Assembly (NCBI GenBank): GCA_014058105.1
Contig: JACGCM010002238.1
Span: 1,426,001 to 1,490,000, forward strand
Direction: 5' to 3'
From: Kingdonia uniflora
Taxonomy: Eukaryota > Streptophyta > Magnoliopsida > Ranunculales > Circaeasteraceae
DNA length: 64,000 nt
Part shown: positions 3,001-55,305 of the stretch, one piece after another
Layout: every line of letters starts with the position of its first letter
Position numbering within the stretch: the stretch's first letter is position 1
Made by a program: the position numbers and the translations under genes
The notes under the pieces: model-generated
Databases searched by the model: none
What the model was told of the DNA's origin: nothing
What the model saw: the letters and a program-made list of their open reading frames with translations, nothing else

Positions 3001-4080
3001 TTGGTTCCTGTTAGCGAAATGTCCACGGTTCAAAGTCTAGGCTGGGATACTATACAAAATCACTGGGGGAGGACTGCTCATCAAATGTATTTTTCAATGA
3101 GAAGCCTACATCAAAATCAAGGAGCTTCACGAAGGAATTTGCACCACACACGTCTTAGGTCGATCACTGGCACAAAAAACATTTACACAAGGATTGCACT
3201 AGCCAAAGATGAGACAAGATTGTGAAGACTTTGTACAAAAATGCTATAAGTGCCAAATCCACGCTCAAGACATCAAAAGCCCAGCCCTCGATTTATATGT
3301 CAGTAATGTTCTATGGTCATTCAAAAGATGGGCAATCAACATCATTGGTCCATTCCACCCAACATCGGGCAATAGAAAGTTCATTCTTGTAGCCACAAAC
3401 TTCTTCACTAAATTGGTTGAAGCTGTACCACTTTGCTACACCGATGAAAATGAAGTAATGAGGTTCCTCTGAGAATACATCATCACTCGATTTGGCTGTC
3501 CACGAATGAAAAGATCCGATAATGGTAAACAATTCATCAGTAGCAAAGTCCTCAAGTTCTTCCACAAATACAAGATCCAACTGATAACTTTGACACCCTA
3601 TTATCCATAAGGTAATGGCCAAGCAGAAGCTATAGACAAAAGCATCAAGTCAGGGCTAAGCAAGCGCCTCGATGAAAAGAAAGGAAGATGGGTAGAAGAG
3701 CTCCTCAGTATTTTGCAGGCATATAGAACAACTCCTAGAATATATATAGGTTGTAAACCATTTATGAAGGCTTTTGGTACCGAGGCTATTATTCCTTCAG
3801 ACCTCGATCTCCGAACTGCAAGAAGAAAAGTCACAGATGAAGAAACTAAATTTGGACTTCCATGTAATCTCAATTGGATAAAAAAAAACTCAAGATCAAG
3901 CAATCGCACACTTGGGCTGATACCACGACACTCTGTGAAATGCTTACAACAAGAAAGTAAGAATACGAGGATTTGGCATCGGCGACCTTGTACTTCGACG
4001 AATTCAAGATAGTACTCGACCTAAAAACTCTAGCAAATTATCAAAAAATTGGGAATGACCTTATATCTTTAACGACGAAG
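3001..4080 (+). pseudogene. Element A integrase
   Basis: The zinc-binding region ends CYKCQIHA near 3240. The core includes a WAINIIGPF block (the first catalytic Asp appears as Asn), RSDNGKQF near 3510 and GNGQAEAIDKS near 3612-3645, which keeps the last catalytic Glu. A stop at 3472 and another near 3608 break it. The C-terminal part reads through GIGDLVLRRIQ near 3975-4010 and stops; the usual 3' end of pol is eroded and the antisense ORF begins at once. Confidence 0.8.
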
Positions 4081-4129
4081 AAATTGGCCTTCATACGCTT
4101 GAAAGAGTCAATATTGATTTGATCAACTT

Positions 4130-4435
4130 CTATTTTGACTTCGTCAAGGACCTTGGCATGCTCCGCCTCCATCTACCTATGGGCAGATAAGATCTGTTCC
4201 TAAATATCTTCTTCAAAATCGGTCATCTGAAAGGCCAATGCCTTCTCTATCTCATCAGCCAGGTGAGCCTTTATCTGTTCGACCTCTTTCCTCTTCTCCA
4301 TCTCCGAGGCCTGCTTCGCCTCGCGTATGGCCACCTCCTTCTCTTTCACAACTCCCAGCTTCAGCTTCTCCTCCAATCTTTATTTCTCCTAGACTAGCTC
4401 ATCATTCTCCTTAATAAGCTCCTTCTCGATATTTT
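4130..4435 (-). pseudogene. Element A antisense ORF, C-terminal coiled coil
   Basis: Read on the minus strand the segment is rich in Glu, Lys, Ala and Leu (for example EEKLKLGVVKEKEVAIREAK), a predicted coiled coil interrupted by a few stops. It continues the antisense ORF whose N-terminal part lies at 11983-13702; the two are separated only by the CACTA insertion. Removing CACTA and one TTT target copy joins them in frame (…LLAYK-N-IEKELIKEN…). The function of these ORFs is unknown. Confidence 0.75.
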
Positions 4436-4800
4436 CACTACTAGAATAAGAGTCAATGGCCACTGCTCTGGCCGTGGCTAATACCATTCTCCATGGGTAC
4501 ACTCGTACTCAGGGTCGTGTCAACTGGTGGTGTGGCTAATGCTCAAGCACGAACTTGACGGTGGCTAATGAATCAGATATAGCCACAGGTATACCGTGGC
4601 TATTTCCTGGCTATTGGATACATTATAAACCGTGGCAAATGGCCCCATTGGCTACGAAATTTCCCACGTAATGTCCCGTGGCTAATACCTGTTAATCACC
4701 ACCATAATATTTGTGGGTAATGCTTGTTAATTACAACGGTTTCATCTGTGGCTAATACTCGTTATTTTCTACAAAACTAGCCGTGGCTAGTCATTTTACA
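4436..4800. repeat. CACTA left subterminal repeat zone
   Basis: At least seven variants of a CCGTGGCTAAT core occur within about 330 bases next to the left terminus (for example near 4472, 4528, 4593, 4633, 4678, 4732, 4784). In En/Spm elements such subterminal repeats bind the TNPA-type protein and are needed for transposition. Confidence 0.8.
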
Positions 4801-4809
4801 AAAAAGAGA

Positions 4810-4810
<1 letters not shown>

Positions 4811-4849
<39 letters not shown>

Positions 4850-4858
4850 CACATTTGT
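4811..4858. repeat. (TA)n microsatellite
   Basis: About 24 uninterrupted TA units between the subterminal zone and the NRPB2 fragment. A second TA tract of about 20 units lies at 5147-5186 inside the intron before the last NRPB2 exon. Confidence 0.95.
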
Positions 4859-5001
4859 ACAGTCATTACAATCACTCGAAACCTTTTAAAAAGCCCTTTC
4901 CAAATACACCATGCAATCCATGTTCGCTTTGAGAACTTAAAAATGAAACTAGTCCAGTTGGTAAGTGATACACCAAAATTCCCAAGGATTGAGAATAAAA
5001 C

Positions 5002-5143
5002 CTCTCGCCTCAGCTGCTTCAAGGTCTTCACCAAAAGATCACGACTGCGATGAATGCCAACCCAGCAACCATTGACAAAAAATTTGATAGCTTGATCAAT
5101 AACTACAGGGGAAATTTCCTAGATGGAAAATGAAAGAATGTTG

Positions 5144-5189
<46 letters not shown>

Positions 5190-5511
5190 AAGAACAAGAA
5201 ATAATTAAATCAGTATGCATATATCTTTGAAGAAAGTACCTCAAAATTTTCAGTACTCCACTCTTCTAACAATTCCAAAATTGGATTTGCTGTTGATCCT
5301 ACTGTGAATTATGCAGCTGACGAGGTTTTGCTAATTTCCCTACTCGAAGAGAAAAAAGAAAAAAAGTAAAATAGGGCACTGAATGTGCAAAACAGAACTT
5401 ACTGAAACAAGATATCATGTGAGTAGAAGAGATTTTACCTTCACGGCCTATGGGTGAGTTTAACCTTCTCAAGTGGGACATAGGAGATGCATATATTAAG
5501 CGATTCAACAC
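5002..5511 (-). pseudogene. NRPB2: Captured fragment of RNA polymerase II second-largest subunit gene
   Basis: Three exon blocks with introns are preserved on the minus strand. Exon 5439-5511 encodes [19 protein letters not shown] and GREG. Exon 5240-5339 encodes [12 protein letters not shown] then [20 protein letters not shown]. Exon 5002-5118 encodes ISPVVIDQAIKFFVNGCWVG and then a block ending TLKQLRRE. These match the Pol II-type RPB2 sequence rather than Pol I, III or IV/V. All junctions are GT..AG. Compared with the known protein, about 28 residues (the WGMMCPAETPEG region) are missing at about 5301, an internal deletion. It is a gene fragment inside CACTA and cannot encode a working subunit. 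Confidence 0.9.
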
Positions 5512-5564
5512 CTATCAAATGGTAAAAATATCACATGATTCACATTACAACAATAACCATTGTA

Positions 5565-8500
5565 GCATGCGGGTATAGAAGGAAGGTGTGCATGTTGTGG
5601 AGGGTGTTGTAGTTTCTGCCTCTTTGCCATTTCTTCATGCTGACGCTGTTGTTGACGCTGCGTTTTCTTTATCTGGAACTCGTGAGACGATTCATAATTT
5701 GGTAAGCTGTGGTGTAAAGCTATATTGTAGAATCAACAATTGTTAAAAATCGAAAAAAAAGTGATTTAAACATCTCAAAAGAGATCAAGATTCAAATCTC
5801 ATATGATTGTCATTGAGATCATGAGATGTGTCATGAATGTCCATCTCGATGACACTACCACGGATAGGGCCCAAATTTTTGCATCTTAATCTCTCACAAA
5901 AGGTCAAAAGTTGAACCTACATATTAAAAATGCCATAAGCCGGACTCAAAAGAATACATAGAACCATTTAATAGTATAGATCATACCTCTTGGGGTCATA
6001 AGGCAGGGGGTCATCCCAGAAGTACTCTGCATAAAGTGCGACCTTTGCAGATATTCTCTAAAGATAGGGCACAAAAACAAAAAAAAGAAAACATAAATTT
6101 ATGCAGAATGAGTAACAGGGAAACCAGCGAATACCAGTACTACAAAATTACAACTATGATATAGAAGGACAGAAAATCCTAGGAATGTCTTAAAGTGCAA
6201 CAACCTAGCTTGCATAGGAATAAAGTGAATATAATGTTCACTTGGAACTTGGAAGACTAGAACTTTTGGACAAAAGCATAAAATTATGAAAAAAGAACGG
6301 GTAGAGAATGGTTTTATGATTTTAATGCCTAAAAGAAACATGAATGCAAAATACAAAATAGTTTTAGTAATTCTAACATGACATTAACTCTTGAGATAAA
6401 GAATTTGACCCTAGTTGTGTCTGGCCTTTAATGGAAAATGACTAAAAAACAAAGAAGCTATATATACGAAATTAAATTTATTGATGAAGACATCGAATAC
6501 CAGTGATACCAACCTGCAATAATCCCCTGTTAAGCTAATTCAAAAATGCACCTTAGATCCTTTGTTACAGCATCATCCACAGTTCTCGAGGAATTTGAAG
6601 GACAAACGTTGGCCTGACCGTGAAACCATTATTGCTTGGTTTTCTATCTGCACATGACTCGATTGGTGAATAAGAGTGTAATTCTTCGGAGATGAAGGTT
6701 TCAGTTGGGAGTAGAAAGAATCAGAAAGGTTGGAGGCGGCCGTAACTTAGCATCACGCTAAAGTGACTACGACTGACATGGACCAACTTAAAATCAAGCT
6801 AGACACGTGCGGCACTCGAGACACCTGTCCCAAGTAAGCCTAATTACTCTTCTCTATCACATAATCTCAACGCATCACATAATCTCAACGCATCACAAAC
6901 ACTGAACAAAGGGTCTTTGAAGGCATCATTTCATTCAAATATCAACAACTATTACAAAGCACTATTACAAGCTTAAATTCCTTCTTGGGTGTATCGGAGA
7001 CTAGTCCTCTACATATATATGAAATTGGAAAACAGCTAAGTTCTAAAAGGAAACATCAAAAGTGGAGACGAAGCGTACTCCCCCATTTTCCTAAGCTAAC
7101 CTTTACAAAAATAAATGAAAATTTGTACAATGCTCTTTTACAACCTAAGGTACCTATATACAAAGCCTGGGCGTCACAACGACGTTGAATTCAAGTATAG
7201 TTTCCAAAAAAGAAGACCTCTGGCATAACAATATATGCCAGTCTCCAACTCACCAGGTTCTTTTTATTATATTCCTTCTCAAATTCCTGCCTTCAAAGAA
7301 ATACATACTCATTCAAATAAGATGTCAGAGGATAAAGTGAAGCATGAATGGTTGCATTCCTGACAAGGATTCATCCTTCCATCTCTAAGAGAAATGCCAT
7401 AGCCTTGTTGAATGTGAATACCATAAAAACTCAGCAAGAATATTTGATTAGGCTATGCACTGGATTACTCTACAATGCATAGGGTGACGTTATGACCGGT
7501 AGTATTTTTTTCATTTAACATTTAATTTAATAAATAATTAGCTTCTTTGATATCAAATAATTTTCCATTAAATGGCCAAATCTTTGTGATCTGATAAAGA
7601 TAACAATATAAAAATTATTCACAGCTGTGATTCTTAGCCAATCCTAGCTTAAATTTCATGTTCCGATGTGGTTTTGAAAGCATCTTTTATTTTTTAATGC
7701 AAAAGCCTTAATTAAAGTAACATTAACATAGAAAATGTGTTGCTATTTACATACTCCGCATGGAGATATAATTGCATTAGGAGTTGGAAATATTGGCTTG
7801 AAATATTCAACTGAGGATTAAATTCTTAGGCCTAATATACAACGCAAGTGCATAAGAAGCCATATATGAGTGTGTTGGGAAGTATCGAATGGAGCTTTTG
7901 CCTACAAAACCCCACTGAAATACCTATTAAAGGCCAATGACTGCACGCATGGCTTATTGTACGGATCTGAATTGGACGCTATATCTCTTTATGAGGCTTA
8001 TGCATGCATATGCAACCAATTAACAAAGTCTATCTATTCAATAAAGTGTCCTTAACATCCATTATCACAGTAATGTCCACAACAGCAAGAACGTGCAAGG
8101 ACAAATATGGTTAAAGTCCTGGATTTGTCCCGTACTAATTATATGTTACTTGAGAAAGTAGAGCTCATCAATATGTTTTGGCCCAAAATCAAAAATTCCA
8201 AATTACTTGTATCCATTGGATGGTTGTTCATTAAAAAGAGGGCCGATACGAATGTGTTATGCATTTAAATCTTTTTATTTTTCGTTTTTGCTAGTCTATG
8301 TTATGAAATCTACTTGGTCAACAAATACTAAACTAGAAGTAGTGTATATTAAACCACCAATAATAAGGCACAAAGATATTTAATCCCATCAACGTAACAA
8401 ACACATTGAGTCTTATAAACATAATAAAGAAACTATGTCTATTTCACAAATGAGATACCTGAGATGGATCAATGGTCTGCATTTTATCCAACAACTCCAA

Positions 8501-8784
8501 AGCATGGCGGTCAAAACTGTGATGCAAAACATAAGTGGTCATCAAACTAACCAGGCACAAAGAATATGTATCCATTCAATGTCATGTCCATAAAGCCGTG
8601 CCTACAAACAATTGCTTGGGGAAAGAAGGGAATGGACTACTCACTGTTTGAAAAACTCCCACACGCGCCTTTTCAGTGGCCTTGTTGGCTTGAAATTATT
8701 ATACCAAGGTATCCTGGAAACCCCAGGTCAGTTCTTCTAATTAGGAGTTCCACATAGCTCAAATATCTTGTTCAATTGCCCTTG
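5565..8784 (-). pseudogene. CDKC: Captured fragment of cyclin-dependent kinase C gene
   Basis: Four exons of the C-terminal half are recognisable on the minus strand: 8645-8784 (QLNKIFELCGTPN… then PWYNNFKPTRPLKRRV), 8459-8516 (FDRHALELLDKMQTIDPSQ), 5987-6057 (RISAKVALYAEYFWDDPLPYDP) and about 5565-5706 (LPNYESSHEFQIKK…EEMAKRQKLQHPPQHA). They join in phase through GT..AG introns, e.g. K-H at the first junction. CDKC with cyclin T phosphorylates the Pol II C-terminal domain. Here the kinase N-lobe and active site are absent, exon 8645-8784 has two stops, and the last exon runs into the NRPB2 fragment. A 2.4-kb intron-like stretch separates exons two and three. Confidence 0.88.
6058..8458. other. 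CACTA interior without an assigned gene
   Basis: AT-rich sequence between two CDKC exons. Short exon-like open stretches occur on the minus strand (about 6540-6760, 7300-7450), but none matches a family I recognise. It may be a CDKC intron enlarged by other insertions or by further captured fragments. No tRNA or transposase signature is seen. Confidence 0.5.
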
Positions 8785-9620
8785 CTACATTAATAATAAT
8801 TAAAAAAATGTACCAAATCAAAATAGACCGAAAGTAAGCAGCCCAAGAGCCGAGAAATACTGCAAAATAGAACCTAACATATGTAAAAAAAAAAAAAAAA
8901 AACTCTAAGCCGCTTGAAACTAATTTCGTGCAGTTGGCCAGTGTCAAAAGACTTTTTCATGGGGATCAGGTGCATGTCCTCCCCTTGTACTGTTTAAGAT
9001 CCATCAATAAATTACTATTTCCCAAAAAAAAAAAAAAAAAAAAAAAATTGGAGTCATCCGAAACAGGTAAATTTATTTTACCAGGAACATATTAAGGAAC
9101 ATTGTTCAATTGTCTCATGAGACATAACCCTTTTCAAAGTAGTCATAGCTACAATCCAGACTTACCTTGTTGAAGTTGACCTTGTTGTTTATTTGTAAAG
9201 GAACGTCAGTTGGAGTTTGTGAAAACCTGAAATGAAAAACTTAAGACTTGGCGCTTACATAACATTTGGAGTAAACACAAGAAATTAGATTGACTGAAGC
9301 AAAAGTTATAAGAAGAGCTTGGAAAGAAATATTGCCGACCTGATTTCCATTGAGTTCCTTTTACTTTCCTCTGCTGGGAAGGGAATACATGCACGAAAAC
9401 TAGCAAAATAAGCCACATAAGAGCCACCACTGCCAAAGTTCGAATATGTACAACATAAGAGCCACATAAGAGTAAATATGTCCTGAAATCCCATTGATAC
9501 AACAAGTACAACATTGGATTACAAAACAAGTACAACAAGTAAAACCATAAAATACCACACAGGTAATTAAGTCCATGAACTCAAATTCTGAACTTTTAAC
9601 TCGAATTACAAAATAAGTAC
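8785..9620. other. CACTA interior between CDKC and CSLE fragments
   Basis: The stretch contains two long A tracts (about 8886-8901 and 9025-9047). A clean exon-like block on the minus strand lies at 9183-9226, bounded by TTTCAG and GTAAGT and reading QTPTDVPLQINNKVNFNK. Another open stretch covers 9306-9494. I recognise neither; they could be further captured exons. Confidence 0.45.
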
Positions 9621-9957
9621 CTGAAAAATTGTTTGATGATCGCCTTTTCTAACACTAGAGCTCCATTCAGAGAATCTTTTATGTGATTTCCTTAGTTTTT
9701 TAGAAATCCTACCACGTTTGACTTCTTCTTCGATCCTTTGTTTCATTTCTTCATATAGTTTTTGAAAAAAAACATTCAAAGAATGACATAATTGTGTACT
9801 AGTATATTTTTTTTAGGTTGAATAACACATACCTTCATGGCTAGCCATTGACAGTCATTACGGGGTTCAGATTTCTCGGCAAAATAAACTTCTGGCGCTC
9901 TAGGCTCCATCTTGAATTTCTTGCAAAATGGTAACCAATGTGTCGCGAAACGAGAAG
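9621..9957 (-). pseudogene. Captured fragment of cellulose synthase-like E gene
   Basis: Exon 9833-9957 reads FATHWLPFCKKFKMEPRAPE then VYFAEKSEP. Exon 9621-9764 reads KLYEEMKQRIEEEVKRGRIS and then HKRFSEWSSSVRKGDHQTIFQ in two parts. The FCKKFKxEPRxPExYF block is the hallmark of the plant cellulose synthase superfamily. The following KLYEEMKxRIE…GRIS and DHxTI blocks fit the CSLE/CSLG branch better than CESA. The acceptor of the second exon appears mutated (TTTCAA instead of TTTCAG). The catalytic D,D,D,QxxRW core is not present, so this is a non-functional fragment of a membrane glycosyltransferase gene. Confidence 0.8.
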
Positions 9958-10653
9958 CTTATAAGAGAGCGTAAAAAGGATATGAGTCCATGGTTAATTA
10001 TGATATAAAATGACTCAAAACAGATAAGGTATCCCAAATTTTATCTTTGGTGCAAGTAATCATTACCTTCAAAATGAAATCTAGTTGAAGTGTCCCCTCT
10101 AGTCCTTTAATGAAAACGGCTTGTTATTACACAGTGTCAAATCAGCTAATGAGATACTTAAGTATATACTATGGTTGTTTTAAGAATTGTTACCTTCATG
10201 TAAGTGTCAAAATCTTCCAGCTTGCTTCTCCCTTCTATTGACTTCCCTCATGATTGCTTCACATTGATGACGACTTAGTAAACTATCAAAGTTACTAGTA
10301 AGAGGTTAAGTTCATATGAAATATATATTTACCTATTCTGTTTCCAGACTCCCTGATAGTGCACTAAGAAGTTGACTGCATCTCAGATATGTGGGAGAAA
10401 GATTTCTGAGACTTGTTTACTTTCTACTAAATGTTAAATAGAATTTATCCTCCGCCTACCGCATATTGATATCCCAAAACTATAAACTAATAAGCTAACT
10501 GCTGAATTCACTCTTGAATTATATTCGATAAAACTTAATAGCGTACACTAATATTCTCTATCAAGTAACACGAAATAAAATCGAAAATACAATACAAACA
10601 AAACTTGCAACACTGATAAAAAGAAAATAGGGAAAAGGCAAGGATTAGGTTTT

Positions 10654-10863
10654 TTAACGAGTACAAATCAGGTCTTCGTTGATGAAGTGACATTCTAAAT
10701 TTTCATCCCAACCATCGTATAAGTTCTTCTCCTTTACTACATCTCCGACATTAATGTGGCGAAGGTGAGCTGCATCCGCAAGCAGAGACGACATGGTGGT
10801 TTTCCCCGTTCCTGGAGTACCAGTCACTAAAATGTTCGGTTTTGTTCTGTGATTTTGCGCCAT
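10654..10863 (-). pseudogene. AK6: Captured 5' exon of adenylate kinase 6 gene
   Basis: The 69-residue ORF begins [20 protein letters not shown], with the Walker A motif GTPGTGKT at residues 15-22. It goes on through [19 protein letters not shown] to INEDLI, the N-terminal part of adenylate kinase isoenzyme 6 (Fap7/hCINAP family, about 175 residues, nucleotide kinase and 40S ribosome biogenesis factor). It stops four codons after the family's NEDL motif, so two thirds of the enzyme is missing. It lies within CACTA in the same orientation as the other captured fragments. The reading frame is intact from the start codon. Confidence 0.88.
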
Positions 10864-11457
10864 GTGTACTCAACTGCCAAGAGAAGATAAGTTTGGTTTC
10901 AGTAGTTGTAAGCTCTAAGTTAGTCACTACTTATCATCATTAGCGAAAATATACATTTCTACACTAAATCATCAGTATGAACACCCTATTAATAAAATTT
11001 CACTCGGCTATACAATTACTAACAAAATCACTAGGTAAATATCTAATTTTTTTTTATCATAAACCCCATTACTAAAATTTTATCTAACTTTTCTCACATA
11101 GTGAAATGTGTAACAAAAAGATCGATTTTTTTTATAATAATCTAATTTTCAACCAAAATATACAAACCCCAAACCTGAACAAGCATTCACTAAGTATCTA
11201 TGTAATCAACACAAAATATTGGTTCTTATCAAAATTAAAACCTTATCACCAGAGCCCCCCAAAAAAACACCAAATTCAATTTCAATGAATCCCAAAAAAA
11301 AAACTAATTTTACGAATTATTACAAGTTTTTAGAGTTTTTACCTTCAATTTGAGTTTCACCAGCATGAATTTTATCATAAATAAATACTACAATAAACCC
11401 TAACGATGAATTTGAAACCCTAATTGGAGTAACAACTAAATCTCTCAAAAATCGAAC

Positions 11458-11585
11458 CTGATCGAGCTTGGTGGGTTTGTGTTTCCTCTTGTTCACCAAT
11501 GGTTTCTTCACATCATCAGCTGGGTAAAATTTTAGGGCTTTCTCAGTGGGTGCTGGTGCAACTGCTTTAACTGCTCTCACGGAGA
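11458..11585 (-). pseudogene. RPL6: Captured fragment of 60S ribosomal protein L6 gene
   Basis: The minus strand encodes KALKFYPADDVKKPLVNKRK followed by HKPTKL, a close match to the conserved KFYPAEDVKKPL…KPTKL segment near residue 60 of plant eL6. A GT donor-like site follows (CAG|GTTCGA) and AT-rich intron-like sequence continues to about 11330. The N-terminal and all later RPL6 sequence is absent. It sits nearest the right end of CACTA, so a promoter carried with this fragment could in principle drive transcription leftwards through AK6, CSLE, CDKC and NRPB2 pieces. Confidence 0.72.
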
Positions 11586-11982
11586 TTAGGTAGCTGCTCC
11601 CAAGAGAAAGATGTCATGAATCTTAAAACAAAAAGTGGATAATCTGAAGTTGGAGATTCGAAGATTGGAAATCAGAAATTGAAACTTATGAGATTAGAGA
11701 TTCGAAGAGAGATACGATCAAAGATTTTGGGAAGAAATTTGCTTCACAGTTTCTGAAATTTGGATGAGAGAGTTTAGAAACGAGGGAAATAGAAATCTGA
11801 AATTTTGTATCCAGCATTTTAGCTAGTTATTCCACAGTTTGGCACGAACTAGAAGTAGTGGCACAAAAAACAAATAGGTATTTGCTTTAGCCACGAATTT
11901 TAGGGTTTGGCCACGGTTAGGTTTATAACATTTTGCTACTGCTGTGTCACCGTGGCTGTTGGTCCATTTTCTAGTAGTGTTT

Positions 11983-13702
11983 TGTAAGCAAGAAGCTGAT
12001 TTTTCAAAGTCCCAGAACCAAGAAGACGAGGCTTCCTTTCAACCAATAATTTTTTGATATGTATTAATAGTTATAATGTGAGTTCTCGAGTAAGGGAGTA
12101 AGTTCTTTAGTCAAAGAAAAGCAGGGAAATTTTTAACCTTATTCATTATTCTGTGCCCTTCGATGAAGGATGTCGACAGACTCTTTGCTCCAGCTAAACA
12201 GTCGAACAACTTTTCCTCAAGAGTAGTTGCCCCAGCGGCATAGGACTCAATGGTTCGCTGAGCCTCAACATCAGAACCTTCAAGGTTCTTAACAACCTTG
12301 GCCTTCACCTTGTTGGGAGAACTTTTCTTCCCATCAATAGCCGTCTGAGGTACCACAACAGTAGACTTCGGGGCACTACAAATCCCCGATTCAACTACCC
12401 CAGCCTTCTGTCGAACCACCCTCTTCGATGGCTGTGCAGGAAGAGCAGGGGGGTTGGCCACTTTCTTTCTCTTCTTCCTGAAGGTTTCACTCAATAGGGC
12501 CTCTCTCTCCATCGCAATAGAATTAGTGGTGTACCCACTGAGAGCAGGATTCTTGAGTGAGAAACTAGCATCAGCAACCCGTTTGTTCTTTGCAGACATC
12601 TTTCCATCGATAAGGGGGATATCTGACCCTTTGGTTGGCGATCTTTTAATACCCGCCTTTTGGAATAGACCTTCGACCTTCTCTTGATCGGCAACCAGAG
12701 AGTTGAGTCAACCGTAGTAGTTGGTCGTTATGTCATAAAACTTCTCCTGGATCTTTGAATTTCTATCGACCTCCTTCAGATCTGTACAGAGACAAAACAA
12801 AAGACAATTAACACAAGCCCAAAACAACAAGCAAGTCAAAAATTTGACAAACATGTTTCCTAGAGACACGCCTAGATGGAAGTACTTCATTTTTAGAGGC
12901 TCCCCTGAATCTTTATGGTCGAATTCATAATTTTTAGACATCAGGAGACAATCAGCAAAGTATTGCCCCCCTCTATAGACACCATCTCATAAAATAGAGG
13001 CCTCTTCAGAAATCTCGCCAAGTATCTATAACCCACTTTCTGCGGATTATGTTTAAGTGTGCAATACACATAGAGATCGTCAACACTTATCAACTCTTCC
13101 CCCCTCTCCCTTAACTGACCATTTATCACCCCCACAACCCTAAAAAGATCGTACATGTTCGGATTGAACTACCCAGGGGAAACATCAAAGAAATTTTTTA
13201 AAAAAATCTGATCAGCTTGAAGAGGAAGCTTTAACCCCTTCGTAATCTGTTCTCGATGCACCAGTATACCGTTCAGTGGGACATCTTGATAAGTCATTTC
13301 CCAATGGTATACCTCCAACCTAATATCTTTGGGGATACCATACTTTGACTTGAAGTTCAGTATCTCAATGGCCTCTGGAGCCTCCCCGTAGTACTCCATA
13401 TCTTCATCTTCCATAACTTTTGTCTCCTCTCCTTCCCCACCCCCACTAACATACCCTTATCAATCACTCGCCTATGGCTCATGATCCGCATCGGTGTCTG
13501 TCCTCTTTCCATCTTGAACTTTGATGGGCTGAGCCTCTAAGTTACACCGATTCATACTGGCAACATCAACACTATTTTACCCACCCAATTCTTGGACGCA
13601 AGTGGTTACATCAATCACTAATGGTTCTACGTCAAAAAGGTTATAAAAAATTCTCTCTCTATCCGTATCATAATAGTTAGAATTTTGGACTGGTTCAGCC
13701 AT
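11983..13702 (-). pseudogene. Element A antisense ORF, N-terminal part
   Basis: The likely start codon is at 13700-13702 (MAEPVQNSNYYDTDRE). The segment 13414-12941 reads [19 protein letters not shown], then [18 protein letters not shown] and [20 protein letters not shown], which resembles the domain Pfam calls transposase (putative) gypsy type (PF04195), the N-terminal domain of antisense ORFs in Tat elements. A basic, Ser/Lys-rich linker (12111-12599) leads to the coiled coil continued at 4435-4130. Splice-like signals suggest introns near 12783-12860 and 11990-12110. Several stops make it a pseudogene. Role unknown; domain assignment is from memory. Confidence 0.65.
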
Positions 13703-20089: not shown

Positions 20090-21985
20090 ACCCTTCCTGC
20101 CATGACAATACGGTGAAAAATTTCTATTAGGGAGTAACAGTTGTTAGTTTCATGGCTATAGACGTTATGATACTGACATTGAGGTTTATTTGGGACATCC
20201 TGAATCTCTTGGGCTTCTCAGAAGAGTTTATCTACCCTTAGTAACGGTAATATAGCTGATAGGGTGGTTATCATAGGAGGTAAGACTGGGACAGGTCGAT
20301 CTTATTTTCTATCTTTTCGTTTGACATTGTCGTTGTGACGCCCACACTGTTTGGCAGTAACATTGTTTATTGGTTTTGAGTGTGGCAGTAAGAGAACACC
20401 GTTTGAATGGATAACAAAAAAACTTTTCATCTTATCTTTCTTGGATCGTTCGAGTTCGATGTAGCTATTAACCATATCGATCCTCTCTGTGACAGCTTTA
20501 GGTTGGTGGAGTGTAAGTTCTTCTCAAACTTTAGAATCGATGTAGAGAGCAAAGGTAAATGTCGGTATGACAATCTTGAGATTTGAATTCCCAATTTTCC
20601 TCGTTTCTTGCAGGAAATACTTATAAAATTTTGCCAAAGTTTCCTTCACGCCTTTTCAAAAAAGAAAAGGGAATCAACCGTTATCTCACGTTCATTGTCG
20701 TTGTGACGCCCACACTGTTTGGCAGTAACATTGTTTATTGGTTTTGAGTGTGGCGGTAAGAAAACACCGTTTGAATGGATAACAAAAAAACTTTTCATCT
20801 TATCTTTCTTGGATCGTTCGAGTTCGATGTAGCTATTAACCATATCGATCCTCTCTGTGACGGCTTTAGGTTGGTGGAGTGTAAGTTCTTCTCAAACTTT
20901 AGAATCGATGTAGAGAGCAAAGGTAAATGCCGGTATGACAATCTTGAGATTTGAATTCTCAATTTTCCTCGTTTCTTGCAGGAAATACTTATAAAATTTT
21001 GCCAAAGTTTCCTTCACGCCTTTTCAAAAAAGAAAAGGGAATCAACCGTTATCTCACGTTCCTTAGCATGTGCGTAGTTTGACTCAAAAAGTCGCTGTAA
21101 TAGGGTGAAGCCAGTAATCGAACCTTCGGGAATGGTGTGGAACTACCTTAGTGGCTCTTCCTTGAGGCTCATGTTAAACAGTTGGCACAACATATAATCA
21201 AGCTTGGAGTATTGGCCGACGGTTGCTTTGAAATAACGGACGTGGGTAAGTGGGTTGGTAAGGCCTGCATATTGGTAAAATTTTGGCATGTGAAAGTTGT
21301 CTAAAATTGGCATGACTTCGAGATGAGAGGAAATCGGGTTAGTCTCTATCCTATCCAGACCGAATCATCAACTTGGATTGTCTAAATGCATGACTTGACT
21401 CCTATTGTTCAAGTTGTCTAAGGTAATGAATTGTTGGAGAACGTTTGGTTCAGCCGCTGCTTGTGGATAAAAATCTCATTGTCCTTCTAGGCCCAATCAC
21501 TCTCTAACTGGTCATCTAAGAGGTGATGGTGAGGTTTGAGGACGTGTTCGTCGACTTCTTTGAATTATCGATGCTGATGACGTAAGGCCAAAATATTGAG
21601 ATGTTCTATCTGGGTTCCTGGATTGAGACCTGGAAGTTCAAATTCGCTCTTCCCTCAGTAGGCTTTCCCTCTGGACAGCTCGCGACCGATGATCACTTCA
21701 GGCCTGTGGAGGTGATCCTTGTCGACCAGTGAGTCGATCTTATTGCCTTTGTAAACTTTTTATCTCTTTTTGATACGTTCGGATTTGTTATTCCAGGGCA
21801 TTCCTCCTCTCGTCCCTCTCAACTTGGAAAGCTTGAGTGTGAATCTTTTGATCTTTCAGTCGCTGGTTCCTGTCATATTCCATATGCTTCAGAAGCTCGA
21901 TAATAACATTGTGGAAATTAACAGTTTCTGGCTAGACGGTGACTGAAATATCTTAATTGTTTCTCTGAGTACTGAAAAAACTTCT
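20090..21985 (-). pseudogene. Element B gag
   Basis: The start codon is probably at 21983-21985 (MTNMNLRSF). The N-terminal third is Arg/Gln/Glu-rich. The middle, around 21080-21300, holds the Tat gag block FYQYAGLTNPLTHVRYFKAT and FHTIPEGSITGFTLLQRLF. Near 20110-20175 a zinc-knuckle-like YHNVYSHETNNCYSL matches element A. Many stops and a 368-bp internal tandem duplication disable it. Gag would form the virus-like particle shell in an active copy. Confidence 0.72.
20325..21060 (-). repeat. 368-bp tandem duplication in element B gag
   Basis: Copies at 20325-20692 and 20693-21060 differ at about five positions by eye, so the duplication is much younger than element B itself. Both begin CATTGTCGTTGTGACGCCC and end TTATCTCACGTT. 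Confidence 0.93.
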
Positions 21986-32321: not shown

Positions 32322-34406
32322 TCAATGGAAGCTTCCTAATTGTATGAGATCATCATTATTACGAGTCTGACAGGCCCAAGCACCTCGAGTTTTGAAGTCC
32401 CACACAATCTTGGATATTTCATCTTGTGGAAAAGTTAAGACTTGTCGCTTTACTGATCTATGCAATTCACAGAAGAATTTAGGGTCATTCAGTCTAATAT
32501 ACTCACGAAGCACACGCTCATGATCTGGGACCCAATTCCTAGGAAACGGCGTGTAGTCACATGAGGGAATCAATGCCATGTGAGAGAACTGAACACCTTC
32601 AATAGCCTCAATCAGTCCCATCCTTAGTAGATCTGAATACTCAGGTGCTGCATTGTTACTACTGTCCTTCAAAGGGCGGCTAAGGTTACGTGAGGCAATT
32701 CCATATACCTTGGCACGGGATTTAAGTCTATATCTCGCAGCGTAGAGCTTAGCAAGAGAACTCCGTATAACATAAGCACAAAATCCGACCACTTTCTTCC
32801 TGTTATCTGCATATTTATACCAATCTGCTATGGTCTCAAGGAACTTATTCATCTGAGAATTGGTGTGTGATTGGGTCGCATAGAGCATTGGGGTGCAAGG
32901 CAATGGCTCGGGATCTTTATCACCTTTAACAAATTTAAGGCGCCTGAATTGGCGAATACATTGTTGTAAGCTAGCAGTAACTGAGAGTAAAGTCCCAACG
33001 CCCTTCTCGCTCACAATTTTCCCCCCAGTTGCCGTGTAATGCAATGTTGGGTGTATCACCCGAAGACATATTATATGATCTAAGAACTGAATTCCCCTTG
33101 TGATGTGTTCCACCTCCACCTTTGAATTGTCTAACCCGATACCAAATTTTACCTCACAAAATTCTATCAAATCCTTTCTCATCTCTACTGCATCCTCTCT
33201 AGGTCCCCGAATTCCTACCAATACATGAGCCCCATGTCGGATGTAGTCCATTTTTCTCGTCATCTCCCTCCCGCAAGAAGGAACAAACTCCGGCCACGCA
33301 GGGTTATGGCTACCATCATTGATGTTTTCTTTCCATATCGAATCAAGTTTTGAGGGGCGAAAGAACTCAACTATTTTGTCTTTCATCCAATCATCGAATT
33401 CATTAAGAGTTATGTTTGCAAGCAAAGGACTCAAAATGCCACAATGACCATAGGATGGGATATTCGCAGCTTCAATGGGTGCAAAGCTATAAAAGGTTCT
33501 CAACCAATACGGATCAGGCTTTGGCTCGTGCTCATTTAAAATTTTCTTTTTCTTACTTGCTACCTTTTTTTTCTTTCTCTTCTTCTTTAACTCATGTTCA
33601 CTCTCATCTTTAGACTGATTCCTTGCTGGGGCTTTAAGGCCAGATTTAATCAACTTCAAAACCTTCTTATCCTTAACAACCTTCTCTAAACAACCCATCA
33701 TCACATTTGGTGTCACATTCTCAAGAATGTCACTCAAATTCACTTTCAAGAACCAAAGATACCCAGCAAAATTACTACGAATGGTCCTAATAACCGTATG
33801 TGCATTCCGACCAGGTCGAAATGCATGAGACTTCGTCGAGAACCTTGGTTCAAACACAGGTTCCATTACAAACAACAACACTTCCTGAACTACGCGGTCT
33901 TGAAAAGTAGGCTTATCAGATTCCAACAAAGCCCTTAGCTTACTCTTCGACATAACAAACGGCTCCTGTTTATCACTGGGGGACATGAGAAAAAGTTGGG
34001 TTTTCATTCCCCACCTAAACTGTCCATTTAAAACAGCTTTTTGAAGCAAAAAAATGTCATTAAGCACATTTAAATGAATGGCATTCCGAGGAGGGAAAGA
34101 CCCGGTTTCTTCGGCATAAGAACGTTGGTAACCCAATACCCACAAGTCAAACTTATTGAGGAAACCAGTGAGATTGGAGAAGGGCTGGGTGGTGGAGTTA
34201 GAGAAGGTTTTGAACCATATATCGGCGCAAATTTCAATGGGGTCTTGTTTCATGAGTGAGTAAACATTGGGGTGTTGTTGTTTTGGTTGGTTTTGATGAG
34301 GGAGGTGGTTTAGGAATGGTGGGTGAGCAGAGGTTGTAGTGATGGATCGGAGGAGGAGGAGATTGAGATTGGATGGAAGGTGTTTGATGATTGTTCTCAA
34401 AGACAT
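32322..34406 (-). CDS. nMAT1: Nuclear-encoded group II intron maturase, mitochondrial (nMAT type)
   Basis: An uninterrupted 694-residue ORF. Residues 1-50 are rich in Ser, Thr, Leu and basic residues with no acidic residue, a likely mitochondrial presequence. Residues about 110-480 form a degenerate group II intron-type RT domain with FQDRVVQEVLLFVMEP, SHAFRPGRNAHTVI and a GHCGILSPLLANITLNEFD block. The RT active site, normally R-Y-A-D-D, reads RHGAH near residue 390, so DNA synthesis is not expected. A Lys-rich insert lies near 268-290. Residues about 530-580 (KYADNRKKVVGFCAYVIRSS, then LAKLYAARYRLKSRAKVYG) are the maturase X domain that binds intron RNA. Length (nMAT1 about 711, nMAT2 about 735 in Arabidopsis) and lack of an endonuclease domain fit nMAT1/2; nMAT1 is my best guess (about 0.6). 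Known role: splicing of mitochondrial nad introns. Confidence 0.95.
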   Translation of the reverse strand: MSLRTIIKHLPSNLNLLLLRSITTTSAHPPFLNHLPHQNQPKQQHPNVYSLMKQDPIEICADIWFKTFSNSTTQPFSNLTGFLNKFDLWVLGYQRSYAEETGSFPPRNAIHLNVLNDIFLLQKAVLNGQFRWGMKTQLFLMSPSDKQEPFVMSKSKLRALLESDKPTFQDRVVQEVLLFVMEPVFEPRFSTKSHAFRPGRNAHTVIRTIRSNFAGYLWFLKVNLSDILENVTPNVMMGCLEKVVKDKKVLKLIKSGLKAPARNQSKDESEHELKKKRKKKKVASKKKKILNEHEPKPDPYWLRTFYSFAPIEAANIPSYGHCGILSPLLANITLNEFDDWMKDKIVEFFRPSKLDSIWKENINDGSHNPAWPEFVPSCGREMTRKMDYIRHGAHVLVGIRGPREDAVEMRKDLIEFCEVKFGIGLDNSKVEVEHITRGIQFLDHIICLRVIHPTLHYTATGGKIVSEKGVGTLLSVTASLQQCIRQFRRLKFVKGDKDPEPLPCTPMLYATQSHTNSQMNKFLETIADWYKYADNRKKVVGFCAYVIRSSLAKLYAARYRLKSRAKVYGIASRNLSRPLKDSSNNAAPEYSDLLRMGLIEAIEGVQFSHMALIPSCDYTPFPRNWVPDHERVLREYIRLNDPKFFCELHRSVKRQVLTFPQDEISKIVWDFKTRGAWACQTRNNDDLIQLGSFH

Positions 34407-34700
34407 TATTTTTCTTTTGTGGGAGATGATGTAATGTAACGTTAGTTATAGATATAGATAGTAAGTAATCTTAAACATTAAAAGTGCTCAAAATCAATAA
34501 ACAATGGTGAATTATAAGCTCCTCAGAATGTAGTCAAGGACCATTACCTTGTGATTTCAGAGAAATAAGAGACCAGGCAACCAGTTGTTTGAGGAAGAGA
34601 GACCCCATAGTTCAGTGAAGGGGGAGAGGAAGGTTAGGTTAAGTCAAGTCAAGTCAAGTCAAGTCCAAAATACATGATGCTTTATTTTTATGATATTTTA
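34407..34700 (-). promoter_or_regulatory. 5' UTR and possible 5' UTR intron of the maturase gene
   Basis: Upstream of the start codon the minus strand carries a GC-richer block (about 34551-34640) ending CACAAG|GTAATGG, a good donor site, with a possible CCACAAAAG acceptor near 34414. This suggests a 5' UTR intron, an inference only. A (TCAAG)n microsatellite of five to six units lies at 34636-34664. Confidence 0.35.
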
Positions 34701-44157: not shown

Positions 44158-44650
44158 CGAGCTGCTCTTTCCCCGGTGACCGTGTTCTGGCATAGAATAA
44201 GAACAATCATCTAGCTAAATCGATCCACCACCACAAACAAATAGTCATTCTTACATTTGGTTATGAGCAAACCACCCATAAAATCCATCGAAATGTTATC
44301 CCAAGGTCGGCTAGGAAATGGTAATGGTAAGTACAGTCCTAACTTTTGATTGGAAAGTTTCGATGTGCTGTATAACACGCAACCATGAACCACACGAGTA
44401 ATATCCACTTGCATCTTTGTCCAATAGACACAACGCCGCAAATTTAAAAGAGTCTTCTCAACATCGAAATGACCTGCCACCCGGGAACAATGTACCTCTC
44501 GAATCTAATACAAACGGTCTCAACCCTCAGGAATACATAATAGACTACCCCTGTAAATCAAACCATCCTTTAATACATACTCGTATGTCTTACCTTGCAG
44601 CAACTTCTCGTTAATCACACTGAGTTCCTTGTCGTCGTCATACCCTATAA
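44158..44650 (-). pseudogene. GYP1 integrase, N-terminal part
   Basis: The open stretch 44211-44480 reads MAGHFDVEKTLLNLRRCVYW, CVLYSTSKLSNQKLGLYLPL and PFPSRPWDNISMDFMGGL. This spans the end of the His/Cys zinc region (one Cys lost) and the first catalytic Asp in MDFMGGL. YLFVVVDRFS follows. It is split from its C-terminal half by the solo LTR. Confidence 0.85.
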
Positions 44651-46010
44651 CATATTCAGAAAGAATAATAGGCTATATCTGCATAGTTACCAACAAAGTG
44701 GAAATAGTTGGTAATGGGGGCCGTGTTAACATATTAGCCATTTTGTTGTCCACTCCTTTCTTTTACTTGATCATCAAGGTAAACTGTTATAGGTACGACA
44801 TCCACTTCATATGACGAGCTTGGTGTAGTTTGGACTGCGTAAATAAGTACTGTAATAGTTTGAGATCAGAATGTGCCACAACCTCCTCTAATAAGTAACT
44901 CCGCTAATGTTTTACTGATTGATATAATGCGTATAACTCCTTATCGTAGGTAGGATAGTTGCGTACTACTTCTGTAAACATCTCAGAATGGTAGGCAACT
45001 GGCTTCCCATCCTGGAATAGGATTGCCCCCAATGCATAGTCTGATACATCTGTCTCGACCTCAAAAGGCTACTACAAATTAGGCAACGCAACGCTAACAC
45101 TGGTACATCTGTAATCTTGTATTTCAATAACAGAAAAGTCTTTTCATGGTGATCTTACCACACAAACTTTACCCTGGCCTTTGTCAAGAAATGTAACGGT
45201 ATGGCTATTTATGAAAAATGTTGAATTTTTTTTTGCAAATACTGACAAGAACCCATAAAACTCCTCACTTCTGTCACTGTACGGGGTCTAGGACAATTAG
45301 TAATGACCGGGGCCTTCTTTGGGTCGACCTTAAGCTCACCGCCACCAACAATAAATCTCAAGTAGACTAACTGCTTCTTTCCAAACTCCTACTTCTTCCC
45401 ATTAAGAAAAAGTTGTTATGATTGCAAAACACCTAACACTTTACATAAATGCACAAGAAGCTCCTCCCATGTTTGACTATATATTAAGATGTCATCCAAA
45501 TACACAATCACGAAATCATAAATAAAAACACGAAGTACCTCATTCATTAAACGCATAAAAGTTGCTGGAGTATTGCATAACCCAAATGGCATCACCAACC
45601 ACTAAAAGAGTCATTGCTTGGTCTTTAATGCTATCTTCTAAGTATTTTCTTCCTGGATTCTAACTTGATGGTAACCCGACTTAAGGTCCAGCTTGGTAAA
45701 AAACTGAGCCTTCTGTAACTCATCTAAAAGCTCATCAATCCGTGGAAGCGAATAATAATTCTTCACAGTAATCTTGCTCAACGCCTGATAATCCACATAT
45801 ATTTTCTAAGTCCCATCCTTCTTCGGCACCAATAACACCGGTGAACCACAATGTGAGCAACTTGGAGTAATAACCCCTTGCTCTAGGAGTTCTTGTACTT
45901 GTTTCTTGATTTTATCATACTCTGTGACAAAAGTATGATACAACCCAATATTGGGTAGTGGCTCACCATTCACCAAGGTGATATCATGCTCTACCTAAAA
46001 TATTCATATT
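44651..46010 (-). pseudogene. GYP1 reverse transcriptase and RNase H
   Basis: The RT starts near 45990 (VEHDITLVNGEPLPNIGLYH), continues LLEQGVITPSCSHCGSPVLL and a palm block FTKLDLKSGYHQVRI, and keeps the active site [12 protein letters not shown] near 45490-45515. RNase H follows, with frameshifts. At least six stops are present. The linker motifs place it with chromovirus-like gypsy elements, though no chromodomain is visible. Confidence 0.85.
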
Positions 46011-47085
46011 TAGAGTTTGTTTAATTCCTTGTCTAGAATAGGTGTCAGCACTACCTCGTGGTTACTCGTCATCTGAGATTAAACATAGAGCAACTACAAC
46101 TGGACTGACACTGAACAGGTACGTGGGTTTGTACCTCTTCGCTCAAAAATATCAAGCCCTTAATATTATACAAAATGTCAAAAAAGAAGTGATATCTTTT
46201 GGAGAAAAAGGTTTTTGTTCGAACATGCTTTTGTTATGTTCGAATAAATTATGCTCAAGCATACTTTTTCTCTATTGGAACAGGTTGTTCAGAACTTTGT
46301 TTATTCGAATAGGTTTTTGTTATGTTCGAATAGACTCTGTTCAAACAGACTTTTTCCTTGTTCGAACAAGTTACTCAGAACTTTGTTTATTCGAATATGA
46401 TCTTAGTTCTGTTCGAATAAAATATTGTCTATTCAAATAAAACATTGTCTATTTGAATAGACTATTTCTCTATTCGAACATACTTTGGGTTTTTGGTTTT
46501 TCAATAAAAGATATCATTTCTTATTTCACTTTTTAACTCTTCCAAAACCTATTTTTCTAAGGCTTGAGATTTTAAAGAGAAGAAAGATTTCAACGAGCGA
46601 TTCAATGTGATGTAAAACTCAAATTAAATCAATCAAAAAATTTAAAAACCTAATTATTGATTTGTAAAGCTTGTGAGTTTCAAGCATGGATACTTTGACG
46701 GGAGATTGAAGCAAGATATTGCTAGAATGAAGAATCAATTGCAAGGGGATTTATTAGAAGAGAGGCAACCACGGGATATGTTTGTCGAGTTTGTAAGTAA
46801 TTGAACTTTTGTAATTTTATTTTAATATTGGATTGTTTATCTGTCGGCCAATTCGACAGCGACCTGTAGGTTTTTCTCCTGGGAATGATTTCTACAGGGT
46901 TAAAATTGTTTGTTATTGAACTTAATTTACCTTTGCTTGTTGTCACTAGAACATTGGACCTACTTGAATTAGGCTAGGGTTAGACCATTAATTCAAGGTT
47001 TTGTTTGAACTTATTAATTTTAACCTAAAATTAATCGAAATTGGTTAGTCTCAAGTAATTATTTATTTTACCCCATCCCTCTTGC
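46011..47085. other. One-kilobase non-coding block between GYP1 protease and RT
   Basis: The block has no gypsy coding. It includes an array of about ten TTCGAA-type palindromes at 46218-46480 and an AT-rich part with ATAGGTTTT…CTTGAGATTTTAAAGAG. The same block is present at the same place in GYP2 (about 54140-55085), so it predates the split of the two copies. I could not find clear target duplications. It may be an old solo LTR. Confidence 0.55.
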
Positions 47086-47089
47086 GCGA

Positions 47090-48763
47090 CATCTTTTCTA
47101 TGCCCAAAATTAAGTCTTTATACTCCTCTTATAACTTCCCCATATTGGTTTGTTGCTTAGGAGACATTACCAAAGTAGACAATACCTTAGTCGATGGAAC
47201 CTCTTGAACCGGTCATACCAACAATACTACGAACTTGCCTCCCGCATTAACCAACCTCTTCACCTGAGTCACCGTTACTAAATTATTGGTAGTGATATAT
47301 TCCTTGCAAGCATTGATATGAAATTCCTTCCCCTCCTTTACAAGATGATACTTACGAGCTCTATGGTAAAGGATTGCATCTCGGTCCCAAAGATTAAGGT
47401 TACCCAAGATTACTTGACACACGTCTAATGGAACCACCTCACACGTCACTTCGTCAATAAACTTATCAGTAATCGCAAACTTCAATGTACACTACTTAGT
47501 GACCTTCAACTCTGCGCCTTTCTGAATCCAACCTAAACCATACGGCTTAGGATGAGCCACAGTAGCCAAACCGATCTTCTTTATTACCGCCTCAGAGATT
47601 AAATTCTTTTGACTACCCGGATCAATGATGGCTTTAACTAAGCTCTGTTTTACTTGAATGCTAACATGAAAAAGTTCTTCCCGACTCACCTTTTTGGTAG
47701 TTATAGGTTGCTTGAACATTAGAGTAAGCTTAGGATTTAGCTTATCAAAATTTGGAAAATCAACAATCGTTGCGGCTAGTGCACATTTCTCTTTCTTGTT
47801 CCTCTTCTCCATTGGCTTAAGTTTCTGGTGAATTTTCCAACATTTATTTGAAATGTGCCTATTTGCCTTACAATGACTGCAGTAATTCCCCTTGGATGAA
47901 GACCCCTCTCCTTTGGACTCCCTTTTATGCTCATTCTTACAATTAGACTTGTACCCCAACTTGCCCTTGTCATCTTTCTTGTCACTCTTCAAATACTTAC
48001 CTTCAATAGTAATTGCTTTAACGGTAGCATCTATGATATTTTCTACAATAAATAGCTTTAACTCTCTTTTAATAGACTCCGACAAACCTACCGTATGTTT
48101 CATGAATACCTCATACTCATCCACATCAATGTTCAAAGCTAACTCTTGGTTATGAAACTCTGTAGTGAACTGTTGTGCGAATTGCCCAAACTTCTGGCGT
48201 AAATTGTGCCATTTGTACCATTGCTCTTGTTCATACCCAATTGGATAAAATTATTTTCTTACTAACACCTTAAACTTCTTCTAACTCAAGCTTCCTACTT
48301 TGTGACATTTTCGATAGGACTTCCACCACGTGAGTGCATGACTTGTGAATTTCAATGTAGAAAAACAAATTTTATGAGCATTGAAATATTTATAAACAGA
48401 AAAATAGGTCTCTATCATATCTAACCAATTATCTAACTTCTTTGCATCGATTGAACCATCGAATACCAGAATTTCAATTTTAAAGTTGATACGATGATTA
48501 CGCATAAGATTTATTGACTTACCAATACCCGATCGCTCCTTAACGGATTCGGCATCACTGGAATCACTATCTACCTTCTCAGTACCCTCGTCTCTATCCT
48601 CCTCCATAATCCCTTTCTTCTTTGAGTGTTCTTACCGCTTCACCGAAGCGGAAGCCTTCGCGAGGTTTATGAGATGTAATTACTCTACCAACTCCCATAG
48701 AATAGTAGTTAGGTAAGAAATTTTCATTTCCAAATTCGTAAGTCGATCTTCAGAATTGCCCAT
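47090..48763 (-). pseudogene. GYP1 gag and protease
   Basis: The start codon at 48761-48763 gives MGNSEDRLTNLEMKISYL, with a stop 10 codons later and another soon after. The capsid region is open at 48281-48607 (VFDGSIDAKKLDNWLDMIET, HALTWWKSYRK). The zinc knuckle CSHCKANRHISNKC is near 47840-47885. The protease has AIIDPGSQKNLIS near 47625, i.e. Asp-Pro-Gly at the catalytic triad position, and QVILGNLNLWDRDAILYHR near 47390. Stops lie at 48281 and 47490. Confidence 0.85.
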
Positions 48764-52261: not shown

Positions 52262-52900
52262 TACGGTAGATCTAAGAAAAACAATCGCGCTGCTCCTTCC
52301 CCGGTAACCGTCTTCTGGCACAGAATAAGAACAATCATCTTGCTGAATCGATCTACCACCACAAAAAAATAGTCATTTTTACACTTGGTCATGGGCAAAC
52401 CACCCATAAAATCCATAAAAATGTTCTCCCAAGGTCGGCTAGGAACTAGTAATGGTAAGTACAGTCCTAACCTCTGATTGGAAGGCTTCGATGTGTTGCA
52501 TAGCATGCAACCACAAACTAATCGAGTAACATCCACCTAGATCTTCGGCCAATAGACATAATGAGGAAAATTTAAAAGAGTCTTCTCAACCCAGAAATGA
52601 CTTGCCACCCGGGAACATTGTGCCTCACGAATCTAATGAAAAATGGTCTCCATCCTTTGGAATACATAGTAAACTGCTCCTATAAATCAAACCATCCTTC
52701 AATACATACTCGTATGTCTTAGCTTGCAACAACCTCTCGTTAATCACACTGAGCTCCTTGTCGTCATCATACCCTATAACGTATTCAGAAGGGGCAATAG
52801 GCCGTATCTGCCTAGCTACCAACAAAGTAGAAATAGTTGGTAATGGGGGTCGAGATAACATATCAGCCATTTTGTTATCCACTCCTTTTTTATACTTAAT
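52262..52900 (-). pseudogene. GYP2 integrase N-terminal part and RNase H end
   Basis: The open stretch 52219-52536 reads CMLCNTSKPSNQRLGLYLPL, PSRPWENIFMDFMGGLPMTK and FFVVVDRFSKMIVLILCQ. Upstream (52625-52906) is MMIKYKKGVDNKMADMLSRP, the RNase H/integrase linker. Homology ends at about 52262, leaving integrase without its catalytic second half. Confidence 0.85.
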
Positions 52901-54130: not shown

Positions 54131-54139
54131 TTTAATTAT

Positions 54140-55085: not shown

Positions 55086-55089
55086 CTCT

Positions 55090-55305
55090 TTCGCTGTATT
55101 TTTCTATGACTAGAAAAAAGTTTTTATACTCCTCTTGCAATTTCCCTATATCGGTTTATTGCCTAGGAGACATTGCCAAAGTAGACAACACCTTAGTTGA
55201 CAGTCCTTCTTGAACCGGTCGTACCAACAATAATACAAACTTGCCGCTTACATTAGCGAACCTCTTCGCCTGAGTTGCCGTTACTAAGTTATTGGCAGTG
55301 ATATG
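55090..55305 (-). pseudogene. GYP2 protease C-terminal remnant
   Basis: The sequence follows GYP1 47095-47310 (AKRLVNAGG-like and STKVLSTLAMSPRQ-like blocks on the minus strand) and ends at the element C LTR. Confidence 0.7.

Follow-up and report, generated by a model that had tools for sequence, protein, structure and literature searches.

A non-autonomous CACTA element of Kingdonia uniflora carrying intron-containing pieces of five host genes

CACTA transposons that carry pieces of host genes have been described in several plants, and we report here on a probable member of this group, found in a stretch of 64,000 nucleotides from Kingdonia uniflora (contig JACGCM010002238.1, positions 1,426,001 to 1,490,000) which we call the window. 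The Tpn1 family of Ipomoea nil was reportedly studied by Kawasaki and Nitasaka in 2004 (cited in PMC5105172 and PMC8195511). Non-autonomous CACTA members of this family keep their termini and subterminal repeats, while their interiors are replaced by captured genic regions; they generate 3-bp target-site duplications (TSDs), have an average length of 7,081 bp, include few transposase-bearing members, and chimeric transcripts were reported (PMC5105172). In soybean, the 5.7-kb element Tgm-Express1 lies within the intron of a host gene and holds pieces of five host genes, exons as well as introns; one piece is from the kinase gene CDC2, and its chimeric transcripts were proven (PMC1947982). Pack-CACTA or Pack-TYPE elements of Arabidopsis, rice and maize are non-autonomous CACTA elements that enclose genic DNA, in many cases of two or more loci, and acquire new DNA when neighboring insertions are mobilized together (PMC8903248, PMC13317346), and those of maize often hold DNA of several loci (PMC8903248). 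Finally, lettuce LsC1 and CACTA elements of Chenopodium have shared ends and captured host fragments (PMC8195511, PMC8978399).

The element and its target site

The limits of the element and its non-coding features are given below in window coordinates; L and C numbers are our designations for loci and contigs of the assembly.

4433..4435: left TSD, TTT (39 empty paralogous sites)
4436..11979: non-autonomous CACTA (CMC) element, 7,544 bp, defined by its ends, TSD, subterminal repeats and the full-length siblings L009 and L010
4436..4800, plus strand: left terminal and subterminal region, present at 40 or more genomic places including the window, 86-100% identity
6774..7178: nested solo long terminal repeat (LTR), 405 bp, TSD ACGAC
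11690..11979, plus strand: right terminal and subterminal region, common to L009, L010 and L014, and 72-75% in L020 and L027
11980..11982: right TSD, TTT

Membership in the CACTA (CMC, En/Spm) group is indicated by CACTA-type inverted ends, a 3-bp TSD and subterminal repeats at both ends, and the original prediction was borne out on these three points. The sequence CACTACTAGAA stands at 4436-4446 and its reverse complement at 11969-11979, the two facing each other, and no further exact copy occurs in the window; with at most one mismatch, there are three matches versus 1.15 expected by chance. The ends form an imperfect inverted repeat of 28 bp (75%). The motif GTGGC/GCCAC occurs 10 times in the first 400 bp (mean 0.43 and maximum 3 in 1000 shuffles) and 4 times in the last 160 bp (mean 0.17, maximum 2), while the interior is not enriched (5 versus a mean of 4.0). 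The predicted limits also stood, with two corrections: the 7.5-kb element is interrupted by the 405-bp solo LTR, and about 180 bp are missing from its NRPB2 piece. As predicted too, no transposase is encoded, since the longest stop-to-stop open reading frame (ORF) within the element has 124 amino acids.

The TTT/TTT duplication is embedded in T runs on both flanks and for this reason was verified in two further ways. When the flanks were joined with the 3-bp duplication removed, a minus-strand frame of the flanking sequence ran unbroken across the junction; a duplication of 4 bp is ruled out because it shifts this frame. Further along, the frame meets stops, so that the flank itself is no intact gene. 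When the joined flanks were searched against the genome, with 40 of 359 candidates scored, 39 other places of 77-85% identity were obtained, all of them crossing the junction and free of the element, with a genomic span within about 10 bp of the query length. The insertion site (window 3900-4435 and 11980-12707) is gene-like and repetitive, having 39 or more paralogous places, and a Pfam search on the flank at 12114-12707 found no match.

Captured gene pieces and their donors

Between the termini lie pieces of five host genes, all on the minus strand and with introns included, as the original prediction had proposed.

4879..5568, minus strand: NRPB2 (RPB2) fragment, parts of four exons with introns
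5570..6060, minus strand: CDKC C-terminal exons (AEYFWDDPLP..., YESSHEFQ...RQKLQHPP), outer limits approximate
8326..8957, minus strand: CDKC middle exons (NKIFELCG..., ...HALELLDKM) with introns, the lower limit being the end of the fetched donor piece
9534..9977, minus strand: CSLE-like fragment of the cellulose-synthase family, two exons and an intron
10428..11447, minus strand: AK6 fragment, made up of some 580 bp preceding the ATG at 10863, the first coding exon and a portion of the intron that follows
11464..11568, minus strand: RPL6 exon (AVKAVAPAPTEKALKFYPADDVKKPLVNKRKHKPTKL) inside non-exon flanking sequence

The five names are backed by sequence comparison with solved structures (PDB), which gave RPB2, a CDK9-like kinase (query of exons joined from L009 and the window), a cellulose-synthase-like protein, AK6 and eL6/RPL6. 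We take the CDK9-like piece to be the plant CDKC, and the cellulose-synthase-like piece is presumably of the CSLE subtype. Pfam matched Rpb2 domain 4, cellulose synthase and the AK6 P-loop (AAA_18); Rpb2 domain 3 stayed below the cut-off, and the short single ORFs of CDKC and RPL6 matched neither the kinase nor the RPL6 family. Because Pfam alone was silent or sub-cut-off for CDKC, RPL6 and Rpb2 domain 3, these names rest on the PDB sequence matches and on the donors.

Donors were searched in the window's own assembly (1.003 Gb in 2693 contigs). Fuller genes were found for NRPB2, CDKC, CSLE and AK6. The four lie on separate contigs, 60 kb or more from the nearest contig end, and all have exons absent from the element. 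The NRPB2 donor (L055, contig C115) has exons both before and after the captured part, and its stretches 685-941 and 1119-1524 match window 5303-5568 and 4879-5305 at 91% and 88%, respectively. It has a second NRPB2 copy (L054) about 10 kb away in the same direction (contig positions ~53.6 and ~63.7 kb for L054 and L055), and six further loci resemble the more distant copy of this pair (70-81% to the window). For CDKC, the donor L057 (contig C323) aligns at 1375-2001 with window 8326-8957 (95.1%) and has kinase-domain exons absent from the element. The CSLE donor (L056, contig C1332) aligns at 723-1168 with window 9534-9977 (92.6%), and the AK6 donor (L036 and L047, contig C2607), which has the remaining exons, matches window 10428-11447 at 93% over the first 579 aligned positions and 77% over a further 399. 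For NRPB2, CSLE and AK6 the similarity ends inside the donor stretch on both sides of the piece; for CDKC it stops at 8957 on the upper side, the lower side lying beyond the fetched donor piece. RPL6 genes were located on three contigs, C715 and C2449 among them. The locus L058 is an intron-less, frame-broken RPL6 copy, 95% identical over 105 bp and matching the exon alone, which would fit an intron-containing source for the captured piece.

These donors bear on two other origins of the cargo. Since introns and splice signals are retained in the pieces, as in genomic DNA, they might be read as a degraded host locus, namely five neighboring genes or pseudogenes whose CACTA-like ends arose by chance. 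We give this next to no probability: the paralogous sites are empty, L009 and L010 hold this bundle within the same ends, and the donors of four of the five pieces are on four contigs, so that the bundle is not one host locus, unbroken or broken. Alternatively, the pieces would have been captured by a Helitron or a MULE, or through reverse-transcribed mRNA, and later overrun by CACTA ends. Helitrons and Pack-MULEs also collect gene fragments (PMC1947982), and short poly-A runs occur at ~8884 and ~9024. The donor introns kept in the cargo speak against mRNA as its source, and the CACTA ends and 3-bp TSD stand at the outer limits, which are the same in L009 and L010; altogether, we consider this origin highly improbable. 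Helitrons have no TSD and present 5'-TC and 3'-CTRR ends, and a Helitron identity was rejected on the CACTA ends and the TSD.

Copies, modules and relatives in the genome

The lists for the left end, NRPB2 and RPL6 each comprise 40 scored candidates, and their counts are lower bounds. For the left end (4436..4800), all 40 scored of 375 candidates were matching places, including the window, and 20 of the 39 others were fetched with 10 kb each. Both ends are present in five of these 20 copies (L009, L010, L014, L020 and L027), in agreement with the predicted sharing of termini; together with the separate donors, this means that neither of the two conditions which the original prediction named as fatal to the capture model holds. 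Three other copies have all five pieces: the full siblings L009 and L010, and L011, whose right end is broken. L014, likewise with both ends, keeps much of the NRPB2 sequence and the CSLE-AK6-RPL6 stretch, but its middle differs from that of the window and is also found in L015, L019 and L023. L015 and L023 have in common with the window the left end and the AK6 module and nothing else, and the other 14 fetched copies mainly the left end. Four transposon copies (window, L009, L010 and L011) and the donor have the CDKC piece almost whole, and four more loci gave weaker, single-exon matches (nine candidates, all scored).

Combinations of modules, assigned by position, were found at 23 or more loci including the window, in a table that leaves out CDKC and uses one NRPB2 place per locus (40 places out of 74 matches) and, of the 40 CSLE matches, the 27 longest. 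The left end with NRPB2, CSLE, AK6 and RPL6 occurs at no fewer than five loci, window included, and at least three further loci have these four pieces without a scored left end. The subsets CSLE+AK6+RPL6, AK6+RPL6 and CSLE+RPL6 occur at a minimum of 3, 3 and 4 loci, respectively. The full set in some copies and subsets in others indicate that the cargo grew as modules and spread. The RPL6 piece, which adjoins the right end, was found at 40 or more places (40 scored of 94 candidates); as the most widespread module, we infer that it is among the oldest. At 2251-2972 of L026, 1.65 kb inside another left-end copy, lies a segment from elsewhere in the NRPB2 donor gene, suggesting that DNA of this donor was captured a second time, independently, in a locus known by its left end alone. 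NRPB2 pieces fused to other sequence are seen in L048, L049, L050 and L053; in L050 and L053 the adjoining sequence matches window 9132-9343 at 90-95%, joins which point to the re-use of modules in a new order.

Relatives carry other genes as well. L020 (8,168 bp) and L027 (8,515 bp) both have two ends and a perfect 3-bp TSD; L020 holds MYB and extensin pieces on the plus strand and RabGAP-TBC and PPR pieces on the minus strand, and L027 holds, all on the minus strand, pieces of DUF4336, a kinase (E = 9e-7, below the Pfam cut-off) and a TRP1-like ubiquitin domain. Gene capture therefore took place in more than one family member. Since these sister elements carry unrelated genes, the link that had been drawn between NRPB2 and CDKC through their shared role in Pol II transcription looks like coincidence. 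Transposase domains of the tnp2 type (tnp2, Transpos_assoc or DUF4216) were seen on the minus strand of L012, L017 and L028, when the ORFs of 7 among the 20 fetched loci were tested; these three carry the window's left end, the right end not being seen within the 10 kb fetched.

The element presents the features of a Pack-CACTA: no transposase, host coding DNA between its ends, repeated copies and, for four of the five pieces, donor genes elsewhere in the genome. With a probability of about 0.94, we read it as a non-autonomous Pack-CACTA in which host DNA from at least five genes was taken up between family termini, built stepwise and amplified. The termini belong to a large CACTA family; genomic, intron-containing pieces of at least five separate host genes would have been acquired between them, either by fusion of neighboring insertions, as the mosaics suggest, or by gap repair, and assembled stepwise as modules. 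The bundle would then have been amplified by cut-and-paste transposition, with a transposase presumably supplied in trans by related elements. Four observations weigh against this reading. The CDKC donor alignment covers 8326-8957, not the lower pieces at 5570-6060. The RPL6 donor was not among the stretches read, where L058 is the sole exon match, so that parental loci are identified for the other four genes. The TSDs of L009, L010 and L014 are imperfect, those of the window element, L020 and L027 being perfect. Finally, the transposase domains of L012, L017 and L028 lie in separate ORFs of copies known by their left end.

Decay, orientation and described elements

The solo LTR at 6774-7178 is absent from L009, L010, L011 and L014, and its sequence (94%) flanks an ORF of 1614 amino acids in L013. 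At 5303-5305, about 180 bp of the NRPB2 donor is gone, which the donor, L009, L010 and L011 keep; one NRPB2 place on C2442, where the full query is aligned within 696 bases, may have the same loss. Kimura two-parameter distances between the window and L009, L010, L011 and L014 are 0.047-0.075 over about 2.1 kb, the siblings differing by 5-7%. With substitution rates of 0.7-1.3 x 10^-8 per site and year, the divergence would date back roughly 2-5 million years. An AK6 tree, weakly supported along its backbone, gives the donor a branch (0.045) whose length falls among those of the copies, and capture and spread may thus have been close in time.

Might the cargo nevertheless function, as a chimeric transcript, perhaps driven by the AK6 upstream region through the CSLE, CDKC and NRPB2 exons, that yields a protein or small RNAs acting on the donor genes? 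The five pieces share one sense, some 580 bp upstream of the AK6 ATG was captured, the window copy still has an open AK6 exon, and Tgm-Express1 makes chimeric spliced transcripts (PMC1947982). Against it, the CDKC middle exons of the window have in-frame stops, the NRPB2 piece lacks its 180 bp, and the AK6 exon has stops in 6 of 17 copies. Across these 17 copies (donor L036 and near-copy L033 left out), 34, 23 and 28 of 66 sites vary at codon positions 1, 2 and 3, compared with 117 of 377 sites outside the exon. Stops without codon-position bias indicate neutral decay, and purifying selection was not seen for the AK6 exon, the sole piece tested. We hold a functional cargo to be very unlikely, and most likely the cargo is now without coding function.

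The original prediction had judged so many sources in one orientation unusual, a view which finds less support, given that Tgm-Express1 has five fragments (PMC1947982) and L020 has two pieces per strand. On the minus strand, there are 11 of 13 recognized pieces in four elements (window 5/5, L027 3/3, L020 2/4 and L026 1/1), counting the sub-cut-off kinase of L027 and L026 with its left end alone. This strand is also that of the transposase ORFs of L012, L017 and L028. The one-sided binomial P of 0.011 is post hoc and concerns pieces chosen for being recognizable, and the common orientation is a weak hint of bias. A fuller version, in which the family would take up genes mostly in the transposase sense, capture or survival favoring this direction, and promoter-capturing elements, AK6 perhaps having provided the promoter, would make one chimeric RNA, seems to us unlikely.

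Elsewhere in the window, an ORF of 707 amino acids (32325-34445, minus strand) has group II intron maturase and reverse transcriptase domains and is probably a nuclear maturase gene. A segment of about 3 kb stands in two direct copies (44158-47298 and 52286-55304, 82-85% identical), and a 372-bp unit is repeated twice in tandem at 20325-21064 (98% identical). Scans of the window for tRNA and Rfam families gave no matches.

Overturning nothing, the locus is a clear case of stepwise exon assembly by a CACTA element, as donors, module subsets and the five-gene form are all visible in one genome and siblings of the element allow dating. The captured pieces mimic real genes, which bears on gene annotation, and the family is a usable system for questions of DNA uptake and orientation bias. 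Compared with the published systems, the element is like Tgm-Express1 in its five gene pieces, one of them from a cell-division-cycle kinase, and unlike it in its length of 7,544 bp, in having siblings 5-7% different, in sitting in repetitive gene-like sequence and in being known from DNA alone. By description, rather than by terminal sequence, its family resembles Tpn1 in conserved termini and subterminal repeats, differing captured interiors and 3-bp TSDs. It is the same in kind as the Pack-CACTAs, fusion being deduced here from mosaics, and differs from the Chenopodium cases considered, which have pieces of one gene each beside transposase domains (PMC8978399, PMC8195511). Together, the precedents of Tgm-Express1, Tpn1 and the Pack-CACTAs place the element of K. 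uniflora in a kind that has already been described.

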